Shown: one piece after another, positions 2,341 to 11,260 of the stretch | Layout of the letters: every line of letters begins with the position of its first letter | Position numbering within the stretch: position 1 is the stretch's first letter | Origin: Ruminococcus sp. | GTDB lineage: Bacteria > Bacillota > Clostridia > Oscillospirales > Ruminococcaceae | Assembly: GCA_003446315.1 (NCBI GenBank) | Contig: DMBA01000053.1 | Span: 1 to 11,260 of the forward strand | Length of the DNA stretch: 11,260 nt | Direction: 5' to 3' | Translations under genes and position numbers: made by a program | Notes under the pieces: generated by a model | Database searches by the model: none | Told to the model about the DNA's origin: nothing | Seen by the model: only the letters and a program-made list of their open reading frames with translations

Positions 2341-2403
2341 AACAGCGCGGTTTCCGTTCGCCGCCGGACACGGAGCGAAGGAGAAGGAGTCCGCGCTGTT
2401 TCT
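2341..2403 (+). terminator. Hairpin with short T tract after the glycine-zipper gene
   Basis: A perfect 10-bp inverted repeat, AACAGCGCGG (2341-2350) with CCGCGCTGTT (2391-2400), encloses a second stem (TTCGC at 2357-2361 with GCGAA at 2374-2378) and is followed by TTTCT. It could terminate the upstream gene. Its right arm lies inside sequence that codes for DpaA, so the hairpin spans the presumed rearrangement junction and may be partly accidental. Confidence 0.4.
2348..2365 (+). repeat. Left half of a split palindrome (direct-repeat copy 1)
   Basis: An 18-base sequence starting CGGTTTCC and ending CGCC, matching 9533-9550 at 15 of 18 positions in the same orientation. If the segment from about 2371 to 9559 is inverted, the two copies face each other across about 14 bases and form a long imperfect hairpin between the ends of the glycine-zipper gene and dpaB. 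This supports inversion as the cause of the present order. Confidence 0.6.
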
Positions 2404-2580
2404 ATGTATCGGCTGCAAAACGTGATCGGCGATTATCCGCTGATTATCAATACGGTTCCGGCGCTGCTGCTGGATGCGCAGATGCTTGCCGCGGTGCAGC
2501 CGGACGCACTTGTGCTGGATCTTGCCTCGAAACCGGGCGGGGATGACTTCGGAGACATTCGGAAAGGCGGTGCTATGTGA
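2371..2580 (+). pseudogene. dpaA: dpaA middle segment (dipicolinate synthase subunit A)
   Basis: This is the detached middle of DpaA, part of its NAD(P)-binding domain. The frame reads from Arg (CGG 2371-2373) through SEGEGVRAVS, then from 2404 MYRLQNVIGDYPL-IINTVPA and LVLDLASKPGG. INTVPA and DLASKPGG are hallmark blocks of SpoVFA/DpaA. DpaA identity ends at the GG codons (2537-2542); the frame then runs on as DDFGDIRKGGAM to TGA at 2578-2580, which overlaps the GTG start of the next gene. In reconstructed DpaA this segment supplies residues 193-249. An ATG lies at 2404, but the only nearby GAAGGAG is about 14 bases away, so independent translation is doubtful. It is on the strand opposite the N segment and 6.1 kb from the C segment. 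The frame is intact, which argues against long decay. Confidence 0.85.
2528..2554 (+). repeat. Putative recombination site, left copy (junction M)
   Basis: 27 bases that match 8675-8701 at 21 positions in direct orientation, sharing CGAAA at the left, a central CGGGG (2538-2542), TGA, and TTCG at the right. The outer CGAA and TTCG are inverted, giving a dyad of the kind bound by site-specific recombinases. Recombination between the copies would excise about 6,147 bp and fuse the M and C segments of dpaA in frame. Confidence 0.55.
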
Positions 2581-3407
2581 AGAATAAACAGAATTGGCTT
2601 TGGATCGCCGGATTGCTCACAACGCTTGTGACCGCAGTCACGGCATGGGCGGCGGAACGTCCGAAAGAGCCGCTTGTCATCACCATTCAGCAGCAGTCTT
2701 CATCGGCGGAAACCACCGCTTCAGAAGCGGAAAAAACCGAAACTGCTGAGATATCACGCCTTCCGGAACGGTCTGCCGAAACCGCAGCAACAGTGCAGGA
2801 AACGGAGCAAACACACACAACACATCAAACTACAACCCTCGAACAAACCATAATCCAAAATGAAACGCCGGACAGGAACCTCAATTCTGCTGATGCAGCA
2901 GCGTTGAAGTGCGTGTCCGGCGTTGGCGATGTTCTGGCGGATGCGATCATTGCATATCGGGATGCGCACGGCGGCTTTCGGCGGCGGGATGAATTGCTCG
3001 AAATAGACGGCATCGGGCAGGTGCTGCAACAGCGGATCATGGCATATTTCGAGATTCCGGATGAATTGCCGCCGGAAACGGTTCTGCCGGATCCGGAGCC
3101 GCAAGCAGAACCGGAAATCGTGAATGATACACCGGAAATGACGGAAACACGAGCAGAATCAGCGCAGACGACATGGACGCAGGAAACAACATCTGCCGAA
3201 TACTACTATAATATCAATTCCGTTACAAAGACAGAACTGCTGCGGATTCCGGATATGACGGAAAAACTTGCGGATGAGATCCTGCATTTGCGGGAGCAGC
3301 TCGGCGCATATCACAATATCTATGAGCTTGGCTTGATCGACGGCTTGAACGGTGTCTATTTTGAAACAGTGCTGCGGGAATATCTCTACTGCGAACCGGA
3401 GCCATAA
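2577..3407 (+). CDS. Membrane-anchored double helix-hairpin-helix (ComEA-like) protein
   Basis: A 276-aa protein starting at GTG 2577, with GGAAAGGCGG about 7 bases upstream; the ATGTGA overlap rules out the nearby ATG. Residues about 7-26 form one membrane helix. Residues 30-98 are a Thr/Glu/Gln-rich linker. Residues 101-158 are a ComEA-type helix-hairpin-helix pair (LNSADAAALKCVSGVGDVLADAI, then IDGIGQVLQQRI). A second acidic linker follows, then a diverged second unit at 210-272 (INSVTKTELLRIPDMTEKLADEI). ComEA proteins bind incoming DNA at the outer face of the membrane during transformation. The second unit has lost its GIG turn (IPDMTEKLA), so it may serve protein contact rather than DNA. 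If the flanking sites recombine, this gene would follow the winged-helix gene at 7971 by about 34 bases, as in an operon. Confidence 0.75.
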   Translation: MKNKQNWLWIAGLLTTLVTAVTAWAAERPKEPLVITIQQQSSSAETTASEAEKTETAEISRLPERSAETAATVQETEQTHTTHQTTTLEQTIIQNETPDRNLNSADAAALKCVSGVGDVLADAIIAYRDAHGGFRRRDELLEIDGIGQVLQQRIMAYFEIPDELPPETVLPDPEPQAEPEIVNDTPEMTETRAESAQTTWTQETTSAEYYYNINSVTKTELLRIPDMTEKLADEILHLREQLGAYHNIYELGLIDGLNGVYFETVLREYLYCEPEP

Positions 3408-3410
3408 AGA

Positions 3411-3731
3411 TCAGTGCATGCGGGAATCGGCTGCCGGATAAAAATCCTCACCGCTGATCCTGCCGCGCTGCCATGCATGCTGCCGGCTCCGGCGCGATGC
3501 GGCTGCCCCCACCGGGAGATCACAAAGCAGATTCAGGGATGCATCCATCTCGCAAAGCTCCCCCACGCTCATGACGATCGCATCTTCTTCGGTGTGTTCG
3601 CCGCCGCACATGAATTCCCATGTGTTGTCGTCAAAGTGATGACAGACCAGTTTGACATCACCGCCTTCCAGAACATGCGTGCAGGTCAGAACCAGCAAGT
3701 CCGGACGCTCGGTAAACGGAAAATGTGCCAT
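3411..3731 (-). CDS. Conserved-looking 106-aa protein, unknown function
   Basis: ATG at 3731 has AGGAGG about 7 bases upstream and a good promoter, so this is a real gene. The opposite-strand frame over the same region is its shadow. The protein is cytoplasmic, with acidic, aromatic and cysteine-rich parts: VLTCTHVLEGGDVKLVCHH, then WEFMCGGEHTEEDAIVMSVGELCEMD, then LLCDLPVGAAASRRS. It resembles small acidic stand-alone proteins common in Clostridia (some grouped with DUF2185/immunity-like families), but I cannot assign it firmly. Residues 82-106 are basic and low in conservation-like features. It converges on the ComEA-like gene with a gap of 3 bases. Confidence 0.7.
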   Translation of the reverse strand: MAHFPFTERPDLLVLTCTHVLEGGDVKLVCHHFDDNTWEFMCGGEHTEEDAIVMSVGELCEMDASLNLLCDLPVGAAASRRSRQHAWQRGRISGEDFYPAADSRMH

Positions 3732-3763
3732 ATCAATTCCTCCTGATTTGTTGTATATAGTAT

Positions 3764-3792
3764 ATCATACAGGAAAAAACGAAAAAAAGCAA
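3764..3792 (-). promoter_or_regulatory. Sigma-A promoter of the 106-aa gene
   Basis: On the minus strand TTGCTT (3792-3787) and TATGAT (3769-3764) are 17 bases apart, about 33 bases before the start codon. The spacer is T-rich. It reads divergently from the transporter region. Confidence 0.6.
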
Positions 3793-3794
3793 GC

Positions 3795-4072
3795 CAATCA
3801 GAGCGAAAATGTGATAGAAGTGTGAAAGATTCGTGTTTATTTGGTTTTTCGGTATGACGAAACGGAAAACACACCCGATTTCAGAGAAATCAGATGCGGA
3901 TTTCTAAGCCAATTTGTAAGAAATGGAGACAGATTTGTAACCAAATTGTAACAAACTCCAAAAAAATCATTAAAAAGAAATTTCAGAAAAGTGTGAATGC
4001 ACAAATTTAAGCGCTTGTAGTTGGGTAGTTTTAACAAAGCACACAAATAAGATGACGAATTGATGATTTGCA
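3795..4072. promoter_or_regulatory. AT-rich intergenic region with phased TTGTAA repeats
   Basis: No convincing gene lies here. ATTTGTAA occurs at 3912-3919 and 3933-3940 (21 bases apart), and the related ATTGTAAC at 3945-3952 is 11 bases after the matching TTTGTAAC. That is about two turns and one turn of the helix, as in cooperative regulator sites. Short mutually exclusive stems form at 3877-3905 (GATTTC / GAAATC / GATTTCT). AAGCGCTT at 4009-4016 is a palindrome like the centre of LacI-family and cre operators. All are candidates for control of the sugar transporter. Confidence 0.35.
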
Positions 4073-4101
4073 TTGACTTTTCAGGATTTTTCGTGTATAT
4101 T
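4073..4101 (+). promoter_or_regulatory. Sigma-A promoter of the sugar transporter operon
   Basis: TTGACT (4073-4078), 17-base spacer, TATATT (4096-4101). Transcription would start near 4108, leaving a leader of about 230 bases before the binding-protein gene. Confidence 0.7.
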
Positions 4102-4107
4102 TACAGT

Positions 4108-4341
4108 ATGAAAACACCAAGAAACCGCGAGGGCTCTGACGGAAGCCTGACACCAGATGAACCGGAACGCTTTCGGTCGTGTTTGCAGAAAGCAGACCTG
4201 CACCAAGAAAAGATGCAGGCAGTGCTTCAGGCTGCGCAAAACGCAGCGAGAATTCATGCCCGTCAGAAACGGGAAACATTTTCAAGCGCTGCGAACGCAG
4301 CAAATTATTCGCAGCAAAATGAAGGAGGAAACTTACAATGA
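4108..4341 (+). CDS. Possible 77-aa leader ORF overlapping the binding-protein gene
   Basis: An open frame starts MKTPRNREGSDGS and ends NEGGNLQ, with its TGA overlapping the next ATG as ATGA, the layout of translational coupling. The peptide is hydrophilic and Gln/Ala/Arg-rich with no known motif. Its ATG falls almost exactly on the predicted transcription start and has no ribosome site, so it would have to be leaderless. The region may simply be an untranslated leader. Confidence 0.25.
   Translation: MKTPRNREGSDGSLTPDEPERFRSCLQKADLHQEKMQAVLQAAQNAARIHARQKRETFSSAANAANYSQQNEGGNLQ
4231..4315 (+). promoter_or_regulatory. Repeated GCTGCG/CGCAGC hairpins in the transporter leader
   Basis: GCTGCG occurs at 4231 and 4288, and CGCAGC at 4242, 4296 and 4310. 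The first pair makes a perfect 6-bp hairpin with a 5-base loop. The later copies can pair in alternative ways, the last only 5 bases before the GAAGGAGG ribosome site. A further CCTGCA...TGCAGG stem lies just upstream. This could modulate translation of the binding protein or protect the mRNA. No known riboswitch is recognised. Confidence 0.4.
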
Positions 4342-5813
4342 ACAAGCTTAAGAAGTCCCTTGCTTTGATTGCAACTCTGGCAATCGCATCTACTGCATTC
4401 TATGCTTGCGGCGGCGACTCCAGCTCCACCGCAGACACATCTTCTTCTACCGCAGACTCCAGCGAGGCTGAATCCAGCGACGCAGAGTCCAGCGAAGAAG
4501 AGACCAGCGATGCTGAGTCCAGCGAGGCTGAGACCAGCGACGCAGAGTCCAGCGAAGCAGAAGCTCCGGCTGAGATCAAGGTCGGCGATGACGGTGATAC
4601 ACTGTCTATCCTCTGCTGGACCGGCGACGACGTCGAGAAGATGATCGAGAACTTCGAGTCCGCAAACCCGGACTACGCTGGCAAGTGCAAGTATGTCAAC
4701 GTTGGTTCTAAGGGTCAGGAAGCTCGTGAGCAGTATGCAAACTACTTCGCAGGCGGCGAGGATGCTGACCTGTTCGTTCTCGAAGCAGACTGGATCCTGG
4801 ACTACATCAACAACGATGAGTACACCGCTCCGCTGAGCGACCTCGGCTTCACTGACAGCGATTTCGATGGCTGCTATCCTTACACCGTTTCCATCGGTAC
4901 TGATAACAACGGCGTTCTGAAGGCTGCTTCCTGGCAGGCAACTCCGGGCGGCTACGTTTACAGAACTGACCTCGCTGAGCAGTATCTGGGCGTAAAGTCT
5001 CCGGAAGAGATGCAGGAGAAGGTTAAGGACTGGGATACATTCACCGAGTCCGCAAAGACCGTTAAGGAAGCATCTGAGGGCAAGACCGCTATGGCTGATA
5101 CACTCGGCGGTATGTGGCAGGTTTGGCAGTACAACCGTGCAAATGCATGGCTGGATGCTGACAACAAGCTCGTCATCGACGACTTCTGCAAGGAATATGC
5201 AGAGCTCGCAAAGGAATACTATGACAATGGCTATGTAACCAAGGAAGACCAGTGGTCTGACGGCTGGTATCAGATCGGCCAGGATGACTCCACTATGGGT
5301 TACTTCTTCTGCACATGGTGCCTCGGTTCCGGTTCTATGCTCTCCAACGCTGAGGGCGGCGAAAGCGGTTCCACATTCGGTAAGTACAACATCACTGCTG
5401 GTCCTTCCGGCTGGGCATGGGGCGGCTCTTGGCTGGCTCTGTCTCCGAAGTGCGACAACGGCACAATGGCTCACGACTTCGTGAAGTACTTCACCGTTGA
5501 TGAGAACACCGCTAAGGATTATGCTCTGTTCAAGTCTGAGTTCGTAAACAACCCGAGCGCAATGAAGGCTATCGTTGACGAAGGTTCCAACAAGAACGAT
5601 CTCCTCGGCGGTCAGGATCAGTTCTCCGTTCTGTATGAGGCTGCTGGCAACATCGACATGGACGGCAAGATCACCGCTTATGACTCCCAGATCAAGGACG
5701 CTTTCAACCAGGCTGTTCAGAAGTACGTTAAGGGCGATGTCGCTTCTTACGACGATATGATCACTGAGTTCAAGAAGGAAGCTGCTAAGATCGAGGGTAT
5801 CACCGTTGAGTAA
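4338..5813 (+). CDS. Sugar ABC transporter substrate-binding lipoprotein
   Basis: A 491-aa extracellular binding protein that delivers a carbohydrate to the two permeases downstream. The start ATG 4338 follows GAAGGAGG by 9 bases. Residues 1-23 are a lipoprotein signal with the lipid-anchored Cys24 (FYAC-GG; Phe at -3 is slightly unusual). Residues 27-78 are a Ser/Glu/Asp/Ala repeat linker. From about 80 the mature family 1 solute-binding fold begins (TLSILCWTGDD), with Trp-rich sugar-binding stretches such as GGMWQVWQYNRANAW and GPSGWAWGGSWLALSP. Codon use is strongly biased to CTG, AAC, GAC and TTC, unlike the neighbouring genes, and points to very high expression. The sugar cannot be told from sequence alone; given the xylan esterase nearby, a plant oligosaccharide is plausible. 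Confidence 0.92.
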   Translation: MNKLKKSLALIATLAIASTAFYACGGDSSSTADTSSSTADSSEAESSDAESSEEETSDAESSEAETSDAESSEAEAPAEIKVGDDGDTLSILCWTGDDVEKMIENFESANPDYAGKCKYVNVGSKGQEAREQYANYFAGGEDADLFVLEADWILDYINNDEYTAPLSDLGFTDSDFDGCYPYTVSIGTDNNGVLKAASWQATPGGYVYRTDLAEQYLGVKSPEEMQEKVKDWDTFTESAKTVKEASEGKTAMADTLGGMWQVWQYNRANAWLDADNKLVIDDFCKEYAELAKEYYDNGYVTKEDQWSDGWYQIGQDDSTMGYFFCTWCLGSGSMLSNAEGGESGSTFGKYNITAGPSGWAWGGSWLALSPKCDNGTMAHDFVKYFTVDENTAKDYALFKSEFVNNPSAMKAIVDEGSNKNDLLGGQDQFSVLYEAAGNIDMDGKITAYDSQIKDAFNQAVQKYVKGDVASYDDMITEFKKEAAKIEGITVE

Positions 5814-5886
5814 TTCTTTCTGAATTCTCTTGTTCAGACATTTCCACAGATAATTTGATAGAATATGCCTGAAAAACAGCATAACC

Positions 5887-5930
5887 GAATATTTGCCTAT
5901 TGGGTCTTCGTACCCAATAGGCGAATATTT
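5887..5930 (+). terminator. Strong hairpin between binding protein and permeases
   Basis: A 19-pair stem contains a perfect 11-bp core, GCCTATTGGGT (5895-5905) with ACCCAATAGGC (5912-5922), around a CTTCGT loop and followed by TATCTTTGT. Such hairpins after the first gene of sugar transporter operons lower downstream transcription and stabilise the upstream mRNA, giving more binding protein than permease. Otherwise the gap 5814-5979 shows only the next ribosome site. Confidence 0.75.
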
Positions 5931-5979
5931 TATCTTTGTCTGTAAATTTCACTAATTTTCTTCTGAAAGGGTGTGCTGA

Positions 5980-7002
5980 ATGGCTACTGCTGCACAAAGC
6001 AAGCTGAAATCTGTCAGTTACGCAAAGTATGGCTATCTCTTTATCCTGCCGTTTTTCATTGTGTACTTCATTTTCAGCCTGTATCCGCTGCTCCAGACTT
6101 TTGTTCTGGCGTTCCATGCGAACGGTGCCAGAGAAAATCTGGCGTTTGTTGGCCTTGATAACTTTAGAACCATTCTTGCAAAACCGGCTGAAAATGATTT
6201 TAAGGCAATGGGTATCCATGATTCCTTCTGGCTCGGTATCAAAAATACCGCTATCATTTGGGTCGGCAACTTCATTCCGCAGATCGCACTTTCCCTGCTC
6301 CTTGCAGTTTGGTTTACGGATCTGCGCGTAAAAATGCCCGGCAAAGGCTTCTTCAAAGTGGTTATGTATATGCCGAATATCATCACCGCTGCTTCCGTTG
6401 CCGGTCTGTTCCTCTCCTTGTTCGGCGACTCCTCTTACAGCGTTATCAATATCCTGTTCCGTTCCGGTGAGGAGCCCTGGAAGATCGTTTCCAGCGTTTG
6501 GGGCTCCCGTATTCTCGTTATGTTCATCCAGGTCTGGATGTGGTTCGGTAATACGATGATTATGCTCATGTCCGGTATCCAGGGTATCAATGAATCGCTC
6601 TTTGAAGCTGCCGAAATCGACGGCGCGAACTCTACCCAGACTTTCTGGAAGATCACGTTCCCGCTGCTCAAGACCATCATGGTCTACACATTGCTGACTT
6701 CCATGATCGGTGGTCTCCAGATGTTCGATATTCCTTACATGCTCCATACCGGTAATGTTGTGAATGAGAACATCAAGACGGTTGCTGTCTTCGTTTATGA
6801 AATGTTCCACAGCAACTTTGCAAAGCCTTCCTTCGGTTATTCGGCTGCTGCTTCTGTTATTTTGTTTATCATTACCTCCATCCTCGGCGCTATGGTCTTC
6901 TATGTCCAGCGTGATAAGGATGCGATCGAGAAGAAGAGAAAGCAGAAGCAGGCAATTAAGGAATGGAAACGTAAGCAGAAAGGGGGCGGATTTAGCATAT
7001 GA
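5980..7002 (+). CDS. Sugar ABC transporter permease, MalF type
   Basis: A 340-aa inner-membrane protein forming half of the transport channel. ATG 5980 follows GAAAGGG by about 9 bases. It has about six hydrophobic helices (e.g. residues 19-45, 88-112, 125-148, 177-197, 229-246, 284-303). The cytoplasmic EAA loop that docks the ATPase is clear at about 209-228 (EAAEIDGANSTQTFWKITFP). The C-terminus is very basic (RDKDAIEKKRKQKQAIK), probably cytoplasmic. Its stop overlaps the next start as ATGA, so the two permeases are translationally coupled. Confidence 0.93.
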   Translation: MATAAQSKLKSVSYAKYGYLFILPFFIVYFIFSLYPLLQTFVLAFHANGARENLAFVGLDNFRTILAKPAENDFKAMGIHDSFWLGIKNTAIIWVGNFIPQIALSLLLAVWFTDLRVKMPGKGFFKVVMYMPNIITAASVAGLFLSLFGDSSYSVINILFRSGEEPWKIVSSVWGSRILVMFIQVWMWFGNTMIMLMSGIQGINESLFEAAEIDGANSTQTFWKITFPLLKTIMVYTLLTSMIGGLQMFDIPYMLHTGNVVNENIKTVAVFVYEMFHSNFAKPSFGYSAAASVILFIITSILGAMVFYVQRDKDAIEKKRKQKQAIKEWKRKQKGGGFSI

Positions 7003-7892
7003 GTAAGAAGGTTACATATGATTCGGACAAGGGCGGCTACCAGACCCATGTCCTCATCAAATCCGCACTGATCTACATCGTTCTGATCATTTTGACTTTG
7101 ATCTGCCTTGTTCCGATCTGGATTCTGGTCGTCAATGCAACTCGTATGCACGATCAGATCATCAGCGGTATTTCCCTGATTCCGAGTGGCTCTTTGGGTC
7201 ATAATATGGAAACTCTGAAGAACAATTCTCTTTATAATTCGTTCTTTAGCCCGCTGCTTGGTATGAAGAACTCGCTGATTATCGCCGGCTGCTGCTGTGC
7301 ACTCACCGTTTTCTTCTCCGGCATGACCGCTTATGGCCTTGTTGTCTATGACTTCAAGCTCAAGGGCCCGGCATTCGTCTTCATCCTCGCTGTTATGATG
7401 GTTCCGACACAGGTTACTGCTGTTGGTTTCATGCGCCTGTTGATCCAGATGAATTTGCTCGACAGCTATATTCCGCTGATTATCCCGTCTATTGCAGCAC
7501 CTGCGATTGTCTTCTTTATGCGCCAATACATGCTGTCCTCGTTCCCGCTGGACATCATTGAAGCTGCGCGTATCGACGGCTCCAGCGAGCTGCGTACCTT
7601 CCTGACCATCTCCATCCCGATGATGAAGCCGGCGTTTGCTGTTCAGGCAATCTTCGCTTTCATCCAGAAGTGGAATGACTACTACAACCAGTCCATCGTG
7701 CTCGTTTCCGGTAAAAAGGAACAGCTCACGATGCCGATGATGGTTCAGAAGGTTATCGCAATTGACCGAAATGCTGACTACGGTGCAAACTACACCGCAA
7801 TCTTCCTTTCGATTATCCCGGTTGTTATCATTTACGTCGTGCTCTCCCGTTTCATCATCGGCGGTGTTGCTGCCGGCGGTGTCAAGGAGTAA
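6999..7892 (+). CDS. Sugar ABC transporter permease, MalG type
   Basis: The 297-aa partner permease, starting at ATG 6999 with AGGGGGCGGA about 8 bases upstream. The first helix is at residues 22-46. The EAA loop is at about 188-207 (EAARIDGSSELRTFLTISIP). The length and C-terminal helix (IFLSIIPVVIIYVVLSRFIIGG) are normal for the family. No ATPase gene follows; clostridial and actinobacterial sugar importers commonly share a distant MsiK/MsmK-type ATPase, so this is expected and not a truncation. Confidence 0.93.
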   Translation: MSKKVTYDSDKGGYQTHVLIKSALIYIVLIILTLICLVPIWILVVNATRMHDQIISGISLIPSGSLGHNMETLKNNSLYNSFFSPLLGMKNSLIIAGCCCALTVFFSGMTAYGLVVYDFKLKGPAFVFILAVMMVPTQVTAVGFMRLLIQMNLLDSYIPLIIPSIAAPAIVFFMRQYMLSSFPLDIIEAARIDGSSELRTFLTISIPMMKPAFAVQAIFAFIQKWNDYYNQSIVLVSGKKEQLTMPMMVQKVIAIDRNADYGANYTAIFLSIIPVVIIYVVLSRFIIGGVAAGGVKE

Positions 7893-7915
7893 TCGGACAA
7901 CCGTTATTTGCATGC

Positions 7916-7950
7916 AAAAGCACAGTGTCTTTTCCGGCACTGTGCTTTTT
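7916..7950 (+). terminator. Terminator of the transporter operon
   Basis: A 12-bp perfect stem, AAAAGCACAGTG (7916-7927) with CACTGTGCTTTT (7938-7949), has a 10-base loop and ends in T. The A and T arms make it potentially bidirectional. Confidence 0.88.
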
Positions 7951-7970
7951 CTATGGGGGATCTTTTCTTT

Positions 7971-8693
7971 ATGGATTTTCAGACTGCGTTAGCCGCTGCA
8001 CAGAAAGATTGCGGCGGCAAGGGCATCGGGACACTCGGCGAGAAAACACTTCATCTGACATTGAAATATCTGTTTGCGCCGGATCCTGATACCCATGAGC
8101 GAAAAATCGGCGGGTTTGTCGCAGATGCCGTGACAGAAGATGGTGTCGTGGAGATACAGACCCGCAGCCTTTCCAGACTCAAACCCAAACTCGCCGCATT
8201 TTTGCCGCTGTGTCCGGTGACGGTCGTTGTACCTGTGATTGAGCATAAAATGCTGCTCCAAATCAATACGGACGGTGAATTGCTCTCGCAGCGGATGTCG
8301 CCGAAACATGAAAGCGTCTGGACTGCGATGCGGGAAATCTATTTGCTGCGGTCTTTTTTGCAGGATCCGAATTTGGAGATTTGTCTCTGTATGATGAATA
8401 TTTCTGAATATGTGCTGCAAAAAAGCAAAAAAGAGCGCCTTGACCGTGTACCGGCAGCGCTGAATGCCGTGCATCGGCTGCGTTCTCCGCAGGATTATCG
8501 GGCGCTGCTGCCGGATCCGGTTCCGGAAATCATTACGAGTGCGGCGCTCGGCACTATGCTCCGGATTTCGCAGGATACCGCCAGATATTATATCAATTTG
8601 CTCTGTCATCTGGGGTGTGCAGAGGAAATCGGCAGGGTCGGCAGACAGAAGCAATGGCGGCTGTTGTGTGTATCCGAAAACAGCCGGGGTTGA
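7971..8693 (+). CDS. Possible nuclease-like / winged-helix protein, unknown function
   Basis: A 240-aa protein. ATG 7971 is preferred over an in-frame ATG at 7953 because GGGGGAT (7955-7961) then acts as its ribosome site. Residues 1-110 show an alpha/beta pattern with Glu24, Asp52 (GGFVADAV) and Glu61-Ile-Gln63 (VVEIQTRS) followed by hydrophobic strands, reminiscent of a PD-(D/E)xK nuclease fold with Gln in place of Lys. That assignment is tentative. Residues about 185-235 look like a winged helix (LGTMLRISQDTARYYINLLCHLGCAEEIGRVGRQKQWRL). It stands just after the transporter terminator without a clear promoter. Its last codons and stop (AGC CGG GGT TGA) lie inside the right-hand recombination site. 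Recombination with the left copy changes GGT to GGA and keeps TGA, so the protein would be unaltered. Confidence 0.7.
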   Translation: MDFQTALAAAQKDCGGKGIGTLGEKTLHLTLKYLFAPDPDTHERKIGGFVADAVTEDGVVEIQTRSLSRLKPKLAAFLPLCPVTVVVPVIEHKMLLQINTDGELLSQRMSPKHESVWTAMREIYLLRSFLQDPNLEICLCMMNISEYVLQKSKKERLDRVPAALNAVHRLRSPQDYRALLPDPVPEIITSAALGTMLRISQDTARYYINLLCHLGCAEEIGRVGRQKQWRLLCVSENSRG

Positions 8694-8701
8694 TTTCGAA
8701 G
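8675..8701 (+). repeat. Putative recombination site, right copy (junction C)
   Basis: Direct near-repeat of 2528-2554 (21 of 27 identical), with a better dyad: CGAAA (8675-8679) and TTTCG (8694-8698) are perfect inverted arms 14 bases apart, and the shared CGGGG is at 8685-8689. It contains both the end of the winged-helix gene and the first codons of the dpaA C segment. Confidence 0.55.
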
Positions 8702-8838
8702 CAGCATCCGCATTGGGCGTGCGCGTGATCTGGGCGCTTTCTCTCCCGGGAAAAACGGCACCCGTTTCTGCCGGCAAAATCGTCGCACAGACCTTGCAGG
8801 AGTTGTTTGCAGAAGAAGGGAGCGATGCGCATGACTGA
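8685..8838 (+). pseudogene. dpaA: dpaA C-terminal segment (dipicolinate synthase subunit A)
   Basis: The detached C-terminus of DpaA. From the GGG codon at 8686 the frame reads G-VDFEAASALGVRVIWALSLPG, then KTAPVSAGKIV to the stop at 8836-8838. The LPGKxAPxSAG block is diagnostic for DpaA/SpoVFA. It supplies residues 250-298 of the reconstructed protein. It has no start codon or ribosome site of its own; upstream in this frame is unrelated sequence antisense to nothing known but overlapping the winged-helix gene. Its stop overlaps the dpaB start by 8 bases, the native dpaA-dpaB arrangement, so this piece has stayed at its original position beside dpaB. Confidence 0.88.
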
Positions 8839-9412
8839 TTTAAGCGGCGTTCGGTTGGGATTTGCGCTTTGCGGCTCGTTTTGCAATGCTGCACGCGCTG
8901 TGGAAACGGCAGAGATCTGCGCCGGATGCGGTGCGGCGGTTTTGCCGATCGTTTCCGAGCATTTTGCATCCATGAAAACGAAATTCGGCGTACCTGCTGC
9001 ATTTTTGGAACCGTTGGCGAAGATTGGGACAGATAAATTGATTCGCTCGATCGCAGATGCAGAGCCGATCGGGCCGAAGAATCTGACGGATGCGCTGGTC
9101 GTTTGTCCGTGCACCGGAAATTTACTCGGAAAGCTCTCCGCCGGATTGACCGACAATACGGTGACAATGGCAGTGAAATCGCATTTGCGCGGCGGAAAAC
9201 CGGTCATTCTCTGTATTGCAACCAATGACGGGCTTGCCGCATCTGCGCGGAATATCGGTGATTTGCTGAACCGGAAGCATTATTATTTTGTTCCGTTCGG
9301 GCAGGATGATCCGCAGAAAAAGCCAACATCGCTCGTTGCGGATTTCTCCCGCGTGCCGGAAACGGTTGCGGCTGCGCTTGCGGGCAGACAATTACAGCCG
9401 CTTTTATGTTGA
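8831..9412 (+). CDS. dpaB: Dipicolinate synthase subunit B
   Basis: A complete 193-aa flavoprotein-like subunit (SpoVFB, about 200 aa in Bacillus) that with DpaA makes dipicolinic acid from dihydrodipicolinate in the mother cell late in sporulation. The start at ATG 8831 has AAGGGAG about 8 bases upstream. Family blocks are visible: GFALCGSFCN near the N-terminus, VVCPCTGNLLGKLSAGLTD, PVILCIATNDGL, NIGDLLNRKHYYFVPFGQDDP and KPTSLVAD. No frameshift or missing block is seen. In the present arrangement it has no sporulation promoter in front; it could only be read from the winged-helix gene upstream. Joined to the dpaA N segment it would fall under the sigma-K-like promoter at 10185-10214. Confidence 0.94.
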   Translation: MTDLSGVRLGFALCGSFCNAARAVETAEICAGCGAAVLPIVSEHFASMKTKFGVPAAFLEPLAKIGTDKLIRSIADAEPIGPKNLTDALVVCPCTGNLLGKLSAGLTDNTVTMAVKSHLRGGKPVILCIATNDGLAASARNIGDLLNRKHYYFVPFGQDDPQKKPTSLVADFSRVPETVAAALAGRQLQPLLC

Positions 9413-10135
9413 ATCGAAGGCGTGTTGATACGAAGCGGAAAACGCATCTTTTTGCCGGGATTTGCACATTATCATTGTGTCAACACAACCTTGTTTTGCA
9501 GGACGCAGGATCTGACTGTGTCCTGCTTTTTTCGGTTTCCATCCGTCGCCTTGCCCCCGCGCAAGGTCAGAACACCGCCGTGCCGCGATGGTCACTGCGG
9601 CACCCAATCCGCGCAGGCGCTGCTGTAAAGCACGGCTGATCCTGCCGGCTCCCAGAATCAGGCAGGGCAGCCGGTTCAATACCACCGGCAGCTCCTGCAT
9701 TGCGATCTGGATTGCACCTTCCGCCGTCGGGATCGCATTGCGCAGCGCAAATGTCTCCTGCCGGACATAATCAACGGCATGCAGACCGCTGTTTTCGATT
9801 TGGATGCGTTCTTTTTCGGTCAGCATTCCGCCGTATACCGTGCCGCCGGATCTCACAAGCGGTAATAAACTTCGCATCTGGATCGCACGGCTCCCAAACG
9901 GCGTGTGCAGAAATACGCCGTCTTGTGTGACCGGCATCGGCAGGATCAGTGCATCCGTTTCGTCCGGCAGAGCTTGCGAATGCTCCGCTGCATGAATGGT
10001 CTCCGGCAGCTTTCCGAAGCGGTCAAATCCTGTTACTGTGACTTCGTGTTCCTTTGCCAGTTCCCCGGCAGCCGCAATTTGCCGCAGGTCTCCGCCTGCA
10101 AGCAGCAGCCGGCGGCGTTTTGATGTATTGGGCAT
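9404..10135 (-). CDS. dpaA: dpaA N-terminal segment (dipicolinate synthase subunit A)
   Basis: ATG 10135 on the minus strand has GGAGTGA 6 bases upstream. Residues 1-192 are DpaA: LLLAGGDLRQIAAAGELA, LILPMPVTQDGVF, YGGMLTEKE, the conserved NAIPTAEGAIQIA at 133-145, and the dinucleotide-binding motif LGAGRISRAL at 161-170, then AARRCSDLAR. Homology stops around Arg193 (CGG, 9559-9557) to Gly198; the remaining about 45 codons (WKPKKAGHSQ...) run antisense through the dpaB terminator and into the last bases of dpaB, and are not DpaA. As it stands the product is a 243-aa truncated subunit, split inside the first half of the NAD(P) domain and probably inactive alone. It keeps a sigma-K-like promoter, ribosome site and intact frame. 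Confidence 0.88.
   Translation of the reverse strand: MPNTSKRRRLLLAGGDLRQIAAAGELAKEHEVTVTGFDRFGKLPETIHAAEHSQALPDETDALILPMPVTQDGVFLHTPFGSRAIQMRSLLPLVRSGGTVYGGMLTEKERIQIENSGLHAVDYVRQETFALRNAIPTAEGAIQIAMQELPVVLNRLPCLILGAGRISRALQQRLRGLGAAVTIAARRCSDLARGQGDGWKPKKAGHSQILRPAKQGCVDTMIMCKSRQKDAFSASYQHAFDST
9498..9532 (+). terminator. Terminator of dpaB
   Basis: A 10-bp stem (GCAGGACGCA 9498-9507 with TGTGTCCTGC 9517-9526, one G-U pair), a 9-base loop, then six T. It lies 85 bases after the dpaB stop, and ends directly at the right-hand copy of the split palindrome. Confidence 0.88.
9533..9550 (+). repeat. Right half of a split palindrome (direct-repeat copy 2)
   Basis: CGGTTTCC followed by ATCCGTCGCC, 15 of 18 bases identical to 2348-2365. 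Directly beside it is CCTTGC-CCCCGC-GCAAGG (9549-9566), a short hairpin at the point where dpaA homology ends. Confidence 0.6.
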
Positions 10136-10184
10136 AATCTTCACTCCCTGATGCTCTTGCATTTTCCGCAGTTTGCGGTTGACT

Positions 10185-10214
10185 TATGATATGCGAAATC
10201 TGCCGAATCAGTGC
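10185..10214 (-). promoter_or_regulatory. Sigma-K-like sporulation promoter of dpaA
   Basis: On the minus strand GCAC (10214-10211) is followed after 17 bases by CATATCATA (10193-10185). This fits the Bacillus/Clostridium sigma-K pattern AC, 16-17 bases, CATAnnnTA, and no good sigma-A promoter is visible. Sigma-K control of dpaAB is known in Bacillus and Clostridioides. The start codon is about 50 bases downstream. Confidence 0.65.
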
Positions 10215-10223
10215 GGAGCGCGT

Positions 10224-10290
10224 AACGCCATTTTACAATGGTTAACCATTGCGAATCATCGGAAACGGCATAAAAATGGGCGTTTTTTTA
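10224..10290 (+). terminator. Terminator-like large hairpin in the divergent region
   Basis: AACGCCATTTT (10224-10234) pairs with AAAATGGGCGTT (10273-10284, one bulged G) and is followed by TTTTT. The 38-base interior contains the perfect palindrome at 10236-10251. It could stop plus-strand antisense transcripts or insulate the downstream promoter. Confidence 0.4.
10236..10251. promoter_or_regulatory. Perfect 16-bp palindrome, candidate operator
   Basis: CAATGGTTAACCATTG is identical on both strands. It sits 22 bases upstream of the sigma-K-like -35 element and about 68 bases upstream of the surface-protein promoter, a natural place for a dimeric regulator of either gene. Confidence 0.45.
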
Positions 10291-10318
10291 TAAAATTACA
10301 TTTGTTTCTCAAAAATGC

Positions 10319-10347
10319 TTGCAATCTGCTGCTGTCTGTGTTATACT
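10319..10347 (+). promoter_or_regulatory. Sigma-A promoter of the surface-protein gene
   Basis: TTGCAA (10319-10324), 17-base spacer, TATACT (10342-10347), 70 bases before the start codon. Confidence 0.65.
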
Positions 10348-10416
10348 GAAAGCAGAGCACGGGAATCGTGTTTCGTCGGATACGTTGATGCATTGTCATT
10401 GAAAGGAGTGATTCAA

Positions 10417-11260
10417 ATGAAAACAGGACGTTTTTTGAGCTTTATCACTGTGCTGGGCATGGCTGCGCCCTGCATTTCCCTGCAAGTATTTGCAGCGCCG
10501 TCGGCAGTGACGGATTGGACTGCGCTGCGGCATGCGATTGCGGACGGCGGTGAGATCCGGATGGATGCCGATTTGACTGCGGATCCTGCGTCCGGATTAT
10601 TGGTGATCCCGGACGGCGTGTCCGTTTCGCTCGATCTGAATGGACACAAACTGCAAGGCAATATGCAGCATTTCATCACGAATTACGGCGCACTGACGGT
10701 TTTTGATTCCGGTGAAAACGGTTCGATCACCGGCATCGGCTGTGTGATTGAGAATCAGGAACATGCTGATTTGACGATCAAAAGCGGCTCGATCATCTCA
10801 GAAGGATATGTGGATACGGCGGAGGCGAAAATGATTGCTGCGATCCGGAATAACGGCGAAATGCGCTTTGAGGGCGGCTTTCTCCACGGCAAAGACAGCA
10901 ATGCACTTTGCATCGGAGCGCAGGGGCATACTGTGATGTCAGACGGCAAAATGACCGCAGGATATACGGTTGATGACGATTATTATGCGGTGTGCGGCTC
11001 CGGCAGTTTTGAAATGTCCGGCGGCGAATTGACCGGAACTGAGATCCGTGAGATGGAATTGGAAGTCGGATATGATGACATGGGCGACGAGTTTTTGTTT
11101 GAAAAATGGTATGTGTATGCGAGTGAGGCAGTTTCGCGGGAGATCGCTTCCGGCTTGCGGCTCCCGCAGGGGAAAGCATTCCTTGCAGGCGCTCATCCGG
11201 ACGGCTCAGATGCGGTTTTGCTCTCTGAGGCGGATGCTACAGATGCTGCAAAACTCTCCA
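10417..11260 (+). CDS. Secreted repeat-type surface protein, N-terminal part
   Basis: ATG 10417 follows GAAAGGAGTG by about 7 bases. The frame is open to the end of the window (281 codons and counting), so the gene is cut by the window edge. Residues 1-27 are a signal peptide (MKTGRFLSFITVLGMAAPC..., cleavage after VFA). The mature part shows short beta-strand repeats: EIRMDADLT, then VSLDLNGHKLQG, ALTVFDSGENGSITG, DLTIKSGSII, EMRFEGGFLHG, SFEMSGGELTG. This is the pattern of right-handed beta-helix or pectate-lyase-like surface proteins common in gut Ruminococcaceae. No catalytic motif, dockerin or anchor is visible in the part present. It is divergent from the dpaA N segment. Confidence 0.75.
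   Translation, partial: MKTGRFLSFITVLGMAAPCISLQVFAAPSAVTDWTALRHAIADGGEIRMDADLTADPASGLLVIPDGVSVSLDLNGHKLQGNMQHFITNYGALTVFDSGENGSITGIGCVIENQEHADLTIKSGSIISEGYVDTAEAKMIAAIRNNGEMRFEGGFLHGKDSNALCIGAQGHTVMSDGKMTAGYTVDDDYYAVCGSGSFEMSGGELTGTEIREMELEVGYDDMGDEFLFEKWYVYASEAVSREIASGLRLPQGKAFLAGAHPDGSDAVLLSEADATDAAKLS

Follow-up and report, generated by a model that had tools for sequence, protein, structure and literature searches.

Three separated pieces of the sporulation gene dpaA in Ruminococcus sp. and its relatives point to assembly by programmed recombination

Results

Structure of the dpaA locus

The window analysed here, i.e. the whole stretch of 11,260 nucleotides of contig DMBA01000053.1 from Ruminococcus sp., carries the dipicolinate synthase genes dpaA and dpaB. 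The dpaB gene is intact, and dpaA is divided into three pieces (N, M and C) located on both strands. The pieces were matched to NF006162, the profile of dipicolinate synthase subunit A, and NF006161 was used for dpaB.

9557..10135, minus strand: dpaA N piece, 193 codons, the last being the Arg193 codon CGG; open frame; NF006162 positions 5-192
2371..2541, plus strand: dpaA M piece, Arg to KPGG; open frame; NF006162 positions 205-257
8686..8838, plus strand: dpaA C piece, from GVDFEAA to the stop codon, with an overlap into dpaB; open frame; NF006162 positions 248-293
8831..9412, plus strand: dpaB, intact; 228 bits to NF006161 (cut-off 156)
2541..8685, no strand assigned: segment of 6.1 kb predicted to be excised, with an HHH/ComEA-like gene, a small minus-strand gene, an ABC transporter and the gene h240

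A preliminary description of the window had claimed that dpaA lies in three intact pieces on both strands that rejoin exactly. The open frames and the profile matches confirm the first part, and the codons chosen there for the joints give a protein of 298 amino acids that aligns without a gap to the contiguous relative P0073 (287 residues, 46% identity). It had also named a second intact dpaA, and stop codons in the fragments of relatives, as outcomes that would speak against a rearranged gene. A single N match was obtained in each of nine genomes at E 0.001, therefore no second copy of dpaA was found, and the same holds for all 25 matching genomes of the genus set described below at E 1e-20. 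Stop codons are absent from the matched stretches of 26 N, 27 M and 25 C pieces.

Conservation of the split in related genomes

The genus set consists of 30 genomes and was built around the genome of locus L001, one of the closest DpaB relatives. N was found in 25 of these genomes, M in 26 and dpaB in 24. Where N and M are both present (25 genomes) they lie on different contigs in 22 and in one reading frame in three, G005, G416 and G422, here called fused. M followed by C was found in none of the 26 genomes with M. The distance from M to dpaB is 5.9-7.1 kb in 19 of the 23 genomes that have both, and in the remaining four (G002, G007, G414 and G422) they are on different contigs. C is encoded next to dpaB, overlapping it in the window and preceding it in the 24 genomes with dpaB. 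The breakpoints are identical across species with about 50% identity. Most N homologues with at least 60% identity diverge from DpaA soon after the same point; P0035, P0043 and P0056 continue into M.

A mis-assembled contig had been allowed for in the preliminary description. The pieces lie apart in 22 other assembled genomes of the genus, which excludes a single assembly error, and the N piece with its tail, i.e. the N junction of the window, recurs in a second record (P0002) at 99% identity. The chance of an assembly artefact in the window is thus practically negligible.

The median dN/dS ratio is 0.24 for N, 0.47 for M, which is a short piece, 0.16 for C and 0.17 for dpaB (pairs with pS 0.05-0.55). 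As far as sequence comparison goes, these ratios demonstrate purifying selection on the dpaA pieces, and the split dpaA is real and functional-looking. SpoIVA scores over its cut-off in 26 of the 30 genomes, and the genus therefore probably forms spores.

The fused genomes G416 and G422 group with the split genome G003 (support 97/98), and the distribution of fused genomes requires at least two changes. The fusion of N and M in G416 and G422 is therefore likely to be derived, and was likely accompanied by loss of the recombinase LSR-C described below.

Symmetry of the cut ends

Each cut end carries an arm adjoining the coding part, and the arms of the two ends that have to meet are mutually inverted. 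Together with a central GG the ends have the form of attachment half-sites:

9533..9558, minus strand: cut end of N, a predicted attL-type half-site with crossover GG 9558-9557 followed by the P' arm to GGAAACCG
2348..2373, plus strand: start of M, a predicted attR-type half-site with the P arm CGGTTTCCGTTCG... and crossover GG 2372-2373
2539..2557, plus strand: cut end of M, a predicted attL-type half-site with crossover GG 2539-2540 and the P' arm
8668..8687, plus strand: start of C, a predicted attR-type half-site with the P arm and crossover GG 8686-8687

The N/M arms are about 20 bases long and lie 3' of the last N codon and 5' of the first M codon, and the M/C arms are about 14-16 bases long. 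Cognate ends, i.e. ends from the same genome, form stronger duplexes than non-cognate ends both at N/M (-29.2 vs -24.0 kcal/mol, n=23) and at M/C (-21.4 vs -15.6 kcal/mol, n=24, with the anchor of G006 misplaced), and none of 20,000 permutations reached either difference. The fused genomes, being without cut ends, are not part of the N/M arm tests. The register of the arms is constant in 23/23 genomes for N/M and, with the anchor of G006 corrected, in 23/24 for M/C. The better pairing of cognate ends and the fixed register imply that the arms change together.

At both junctions the axis of symmetry runs between two G's, and this was found in every end examined. The two bases are the GG of CGG at N/M and the first two G's of the second glycine codon at M/C; in G004 and G006 the central GG is all that the M and C ends have in common at the very centre. 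An invariant GG centre corresponds to the 2-bp overlap expected of a serine recombinase. A serine integrase acting on attP has been described with a pseudo-palindromic attP, a central dinucleotide and half-sites of 25 bp, as given in the cited part of that structural work (PMC3783163), and the ends of dpaA likewise show inverted repeats about a shared central dinucleotide.

The predicted excised N/M site scores 14.3/20 as a dyad. At M/C, where the positions were picked after the sequences had been inspected, the predicted excised site scores 10.5/13 and the joined site 9.75/13, compared with 6.0/13 for 67 contiguous relatives. Changes in the left arm of the joined M/C site are matched by changes in the right arm in G411 and G007.

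Candidate recombinases and promoters

Genes for large serine recombinases (LSR) are common in the genus, with PF07508 in 28 of the 30 genomes. When 50 loci were compared, two families were found to diverge like resident genes: LSR-C (about 485-505 amino acids) and LSR-D (about 390-430 amino acids). Four proteins of these families were tested for domains; PF00239 and PF07508 were over the cut-off in all four and PF13408 in three, the fourth reaching 24.7 bits against a cut-off of 25.3. By names given by eye, the neighbours include a ROK-kinase-like gene (3/8) and an mreB-like gene (3/8) at LSR-C loci and an rlmB-like gene (4/7) at LSR-D loci.

LSR-C was found at E<1e-200 in 24 of the 30 genomes, namely in all 22 with N and M split and in G259 and G421, where N was not found. 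At the same threshold none of the fused genomes gave a match, and LSR-C was likewise not found in G202, G418 and G424, which have no match to N, M, dpaB or SpoIVA. The difference between split and fused genomes is significant when species are treated as independent (Fisher P=0.0004). This co-occurrence suggests LSR-C as the enzyme that acts on the N end and the M start. Two observations are new, the att-like dyads that share a GG centre and the finding of LSR-C only where N and M are unfused.

The divergence of LSR-C follows that of DpaB (r 0.77) and N (r 0.79), and the divergence of LSR-D, found in 21/30 genomes, follows that of DpaB (r 0.67); in each comparison none of 2000 permutations reached the observed value. 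This parallel divergence shows that both families were inherited with the genus. LSR-D is the best candidate for the M/C joint, as distinct from a proven match. Other LSR groups were considered as the dpaA enzyme and set aside; they are more alike between genomes or patchier, and a group of about 730-790 amino acids is tied to spoVT.

The dpaA gene of Bacillus subtilis is a sigma-K gene. A promoter of this type precedes N in the window:

10185..10212, minus strand: sigma-K-type promoter of N, AC-N17-CATATCATA

The motif AC-N15..17-CATANNNTA, which we take to be the sigma-K consensus, occurs upstream of N in 23 of 26 cases (shuffle mean 0.21) and upstream of 0/27 M and 0/25 C pieces.

Neighbouring genes

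The neighbours of the dpaA pieces in the window are an esterase-like gene with a dockerin, a gene resembling comEA and two permease genes of a transporter, which follow the gene of a likely binding protein. The binding protein of the ABC transporter in the 6.1 kb segment was assigned by position. The esterase-like protein (66-1808) has a carbohydrate-binding module and a type I dockerin, an architecture as in cellulosome-forming gut bacteria. The h240 gene (7971-8693) encodes about 240 amino acids without a family match, and by eye the protein resembles a nuclease plus a winged helix. It was considered as a joining enzyme, being present in 8/8 split and 0/7 contiguous genomes, yet 172 of the 396 genomes in the family have homologues, and h240 is therefore likely to be a passenger.

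The closest DpaB relatives (L001-L009, 65-78% identity) come from metagenome genomes titled Oscillospiraceae, Ruminococcus or Clostridia, some of them named as from ruminant or horse gut. The gene order of the window is kept in five of these nine loci (L001, L003, L004, L006 and L009), with N elsewhere: M, the ComEA-like gene, the small minus-strand gene (no match in L009), the binding protein, two permeases, h240, C and dpaB. In L005 N is joined to M, with C lying apart, and dpaA is contiguous in L008. L002 has C and dpaB without the neighbours of the window in the 9 kb upstream, and L007 starts inside the permease genes. In G002 of the genus set C is separated from h240 as well.

Discussion

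Programmed recombination is much the best reading of the split dpaA. It is highly probable that the gene is assembled in the sporulating mother cell by LSRs encoded elsewhere in the genome. A programmed rearrangement of the DNA was among the possibilities raised in the preliminary description. It is supported by the comparison of genomes, and no rearranged DNA of the group was seen in the search for the joined M-C region described below. We infer the recombination, its timing and the identity of the M-C enzyme. The timing in the mother cell is suggested by the sigma-K-type promoter of N and by analogy with known systems.

In the proposed course of events LSR-C would join the N end to the M start (GG 9558-9557 with GG 2372-2373). 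N is inverted relative to M, so the outcome would be an inversion of about 7.2 kb (2372-9557). The M end would be joined to the C start (GG 2539-2540 with GG 8686-8687) by a second enzyme, perhaps LSR-D; these sites are in direct orientation, and a circle of about 6.1 kb with the transporter genes would be released. Inversion and excision would be possible in either order, and a directionality factor would be needed to drive recombination of attL with attR. The product would be a contiguous dpaA-dpaB operon consisting of the sigma-K-type promoter, N, M, C and dpaB. The joined gene would be read in the mother cell, M and C being without a sigma-K-type promoter before joining. In the other split genomes, where N and M are on separate contigs, joining them would amount to a larger rearrangement, one that is harmless only in a terminal cell.

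Several observations weigh against this proposal. The joined DpaA reaches 258.8 bits to NF006162 (over 8-294), below the curated cut-off of 261, and two contiguous relatives score 301 and 274 bits. A search for the joined M-C region gave matches of which the best 120 of 3204 proteins are all closer to contiguous dpaA outside the group; the absence of the joined form fits a joint made only in dying cells, yet it lends no support to it. The joined N/M site is a weak dyad (7.3/20; 8, 8 and 4 in the fused genomes), the M/C arms of the window itself score 9/13, which is below average, and individual contiguous relatives reach 10/13 at the M/C joint, where the choice of positions after inspection also counts. 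In 32/47 pairs the sense duplex of the arms is slightly stronger than the antisense duplex (mean -0.9 and -1.2 kcal), a difference in favour of RNA. Non-cognate pairs differ by -0.5 and -0.8, so roughly half to two thirds of the effect is background. LSR-D, also not found in G413 and G421, was not found in G005, G007, G416 and G422 though M and C are apart there, and for this reason the M-C enzyme is not settled as LSR-D. Sigma-E and sigma-K motifs at the LSR genes gave nothing consistent: among the loci anchored for the scan (21/24 LSR-C and 18/21 LSR-D) a sigma-K-type motif was seen at 2/18 LSR-D loci and a sigma-E-type motif at 1/21 LSR-C loci. The LSR survey covers the 30 genus genomes and not the genome of the window, and the completeness of the comparison genomes is not given.

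Joining could also take place at the level of RNA, with the arms as helices that bring the transcripts together and an RNA enzyme that joins them. Trans-splicing of this kind was attractive at first because of the helices. Complementarity is kept species by species between unlinked ends, distance or orientation of the pieces is no obstacle for RNA, and the duplex energies of the two strands lean weakly towards it. The count of mismatches in the arms turned the analysis against it: G-T (52) and A-C (49) are about equally frequent, which fits DNA half-sites, whereas RNA pairing would tolerate G-U and not A-C. In addition, an Rfam scan of the window gave no intron-like match, all matches being far below curated scores; the joined M/C exons show dyad symmetry around the GG of the cut ends, for which splicing has no requirement; and LSR-C tracks the N/M state. 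Trans-splicing is judged very improbable. It is likewise improbable that the three pieces are translated separately and assemble into a working DpaA as polypeptides. All matched pieces are open, ATG 2404 offers a possible start for M of the window and an in-frame start is present within the first 16 codons of 14 of 24 M pieces, but no in-frame start lies within 150 nt upstream in 16/24 M and 9/25 C pieces. Neither M nor C has a sigma-K-type promoter, and the conservation of arms outside the coding parts also argues against fission of the protein.

A split gene is usually a broken gene, and ordinary rearrangements might have disrupted dpaA in a genus that is losing dipicolinate, in keeping with the failure to find the joined form of the group among the best 120 of 3204 proteins mentioned above. 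There is only a very slim chance of such decay given the lack of stop codons in matched pieces, the low dN/dS and the same breakpoints at about 50% identity; moreover, dpaB is kept in 24/30 and SpoIVA in 26/30 genomes, and N and M share one open frame in G005, G416 and G422. Serine recombinases run invertible switches, so the arrangement might reflect a reversible switch in growing cells instead of a programme of the mother cell, and the LSR genes showed no mother-cell promoter. Phase variation has, however, scarcely any probability when N and M are split in the window and in all 22 genomes with both pieces and LSR-C, as if growing cells were nearly always in the split state, and when the promoter of N is of the sigma-K type.

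Sporulation genes restored by recombination have been described before. The intervening elements skin in sigK, SPbeta in spsM, yin in yabG and vfbin in spoVFB are prophage-like, and vfbin interrupts dpaB, the gene of the partner subunit (PMC4191935, PMC10747680, PMC5025042). Inverted repeats of 16 bp are marked in the figure of att and joint sequences for SPbeta and spsM (PMC4191935). Programmed recombination of dpaA would resemble these systems in that a gene of late sporulation is kept apart until site-specific recombination at inverted repeats, carried out by an LSR where the enzyme is known, restores it. Unlike these prophage-like cis elements with their own recombinase, dpaA has two junctions, dispersed or inverted pieces and candidate LSRs elsewhere, and the split is genus-wide.

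The element gin in gerE of Bacillus cereus is not a prophage and uses the serine recombinase GirC with the directionality factor GirX; it is one element of 28.6 kb with its three recombinases, and gerE lies in two parts in cis (PMC5595907). The excised site of gin is symmetric and the gene-side site is not, and the same pattern is seen at N/M of dpaA. The gin element differs from dpaA in being a single cis element with its own recombinases, the pieces of dpaA being dispersed and the candidate LSRs located elsewhere. The interrupted sporulation gene is dpaA in the present case, as in an element of the skin type. A single cis element with its own recombinase was not found: N and M are on different contigs in 22 split genomes, and domain searches of six tested genes of the 6.1 kb segment gave no recombinase domain. 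Prophage-like content was not seen in the segment either, since three tested of its six proteins had no PHROGs match below E 0.01. Such content is not universal among sporulation intervening elements, because gin is without it. The split dpaA would thus work like skin or gin but falls outside the usual sense of an intervening element on two features, the cis element with its own recombinase and the prophage content.

Pieces of a scrambled gene are put in order in ciliates too, where unscrambling is RNA-guided. The scrambled pieces are ordered in the developing somatic genome (PMC9797194), in a eukaryotic and massive process, unlike the two proposed pairs of enzyme and site for dpaA. In cyanobacterial heterocysts the gene is restored in a specialised cell, and one nifD carries four elements (PMC4874684), which gives precedent for a gene in several pieces. 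The heterocyst elements are described there as lying inside genes and the cited part of that source does not mention inverted or moved-away pieces, unlike the arrangement of dpaA. No published report of a split dpaA or spoVFA was found among the listings and passages of openly licensed PMC papers.

If the proposed assembly is true, developmental gene assembly in bacteria goes beyond popping out an inserted element, and genes could be stored as dispersed, inverted pieces that are rebuilt on cue by domesticated recombinases. It would also show a path from insertion to a fixed host system and provide families of recombinases from nature whose partner sites are known. A further consequence would be that dpaA of such gut bacteria could wrongly be called absent or truncated by automatic annotation. 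The question of what maintains a terminal-cell rearrangement across species sharing only about half of the DpaA sequence would become testable.

A second split gene was found in the same genus. The LSR of about 730-790 amino acids continues in frame as spoVT residues 28-180, with the family match obtained for L228, and this fusion was read in all nine loci examined for it (L228, L333 and L335-L341, with L334 for G259, are the loci concerned). G259 has the initial 33 codons of spoVT 11.2 kb upstream, on the same strand as the fusion (L334:12203-12105, minus strand); the 5' piece was found in this genome only. Both ends carry, by eye, a perfect 19-bp inverted arm pair. That an LSR-bearing element in a second sporulation gene has ends of this kind makes it more credible that the dpaA ends are recombination sites. 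On balance it is probable that this is gene unscrambling, in which a spore gene kept at up to three unlinked loci is assembled in a doomed cell by two dedicated recombinases that are passed on in the genus as ordinary chromosomal genes, and since spoVT is split too, programmed assembly may be a general layer of sporulation.

Breaks of dpaA at other points were also noticed. In L053 dpaA is cut inside C, with N, M and the start of C at 1373-2179 and the rest of C with dpaB at 9927-10597. P0140, P0147, P0203 and P0215, which are outside the group, are predicted DpaA proteins of 164-205 amino acids that start at or just before NAVPTAEG and have no N domain; some are on long contigs, and they perhaps represent another recurrent break of dpaA at a different point. 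A third LSR family of about 420-436 amino acids, related to LSR-C, is present in G006, G007, G413 and G414 (G006:C28, G007:C15, G413:C60 and G414:C45) and perhaps serves another split gene.

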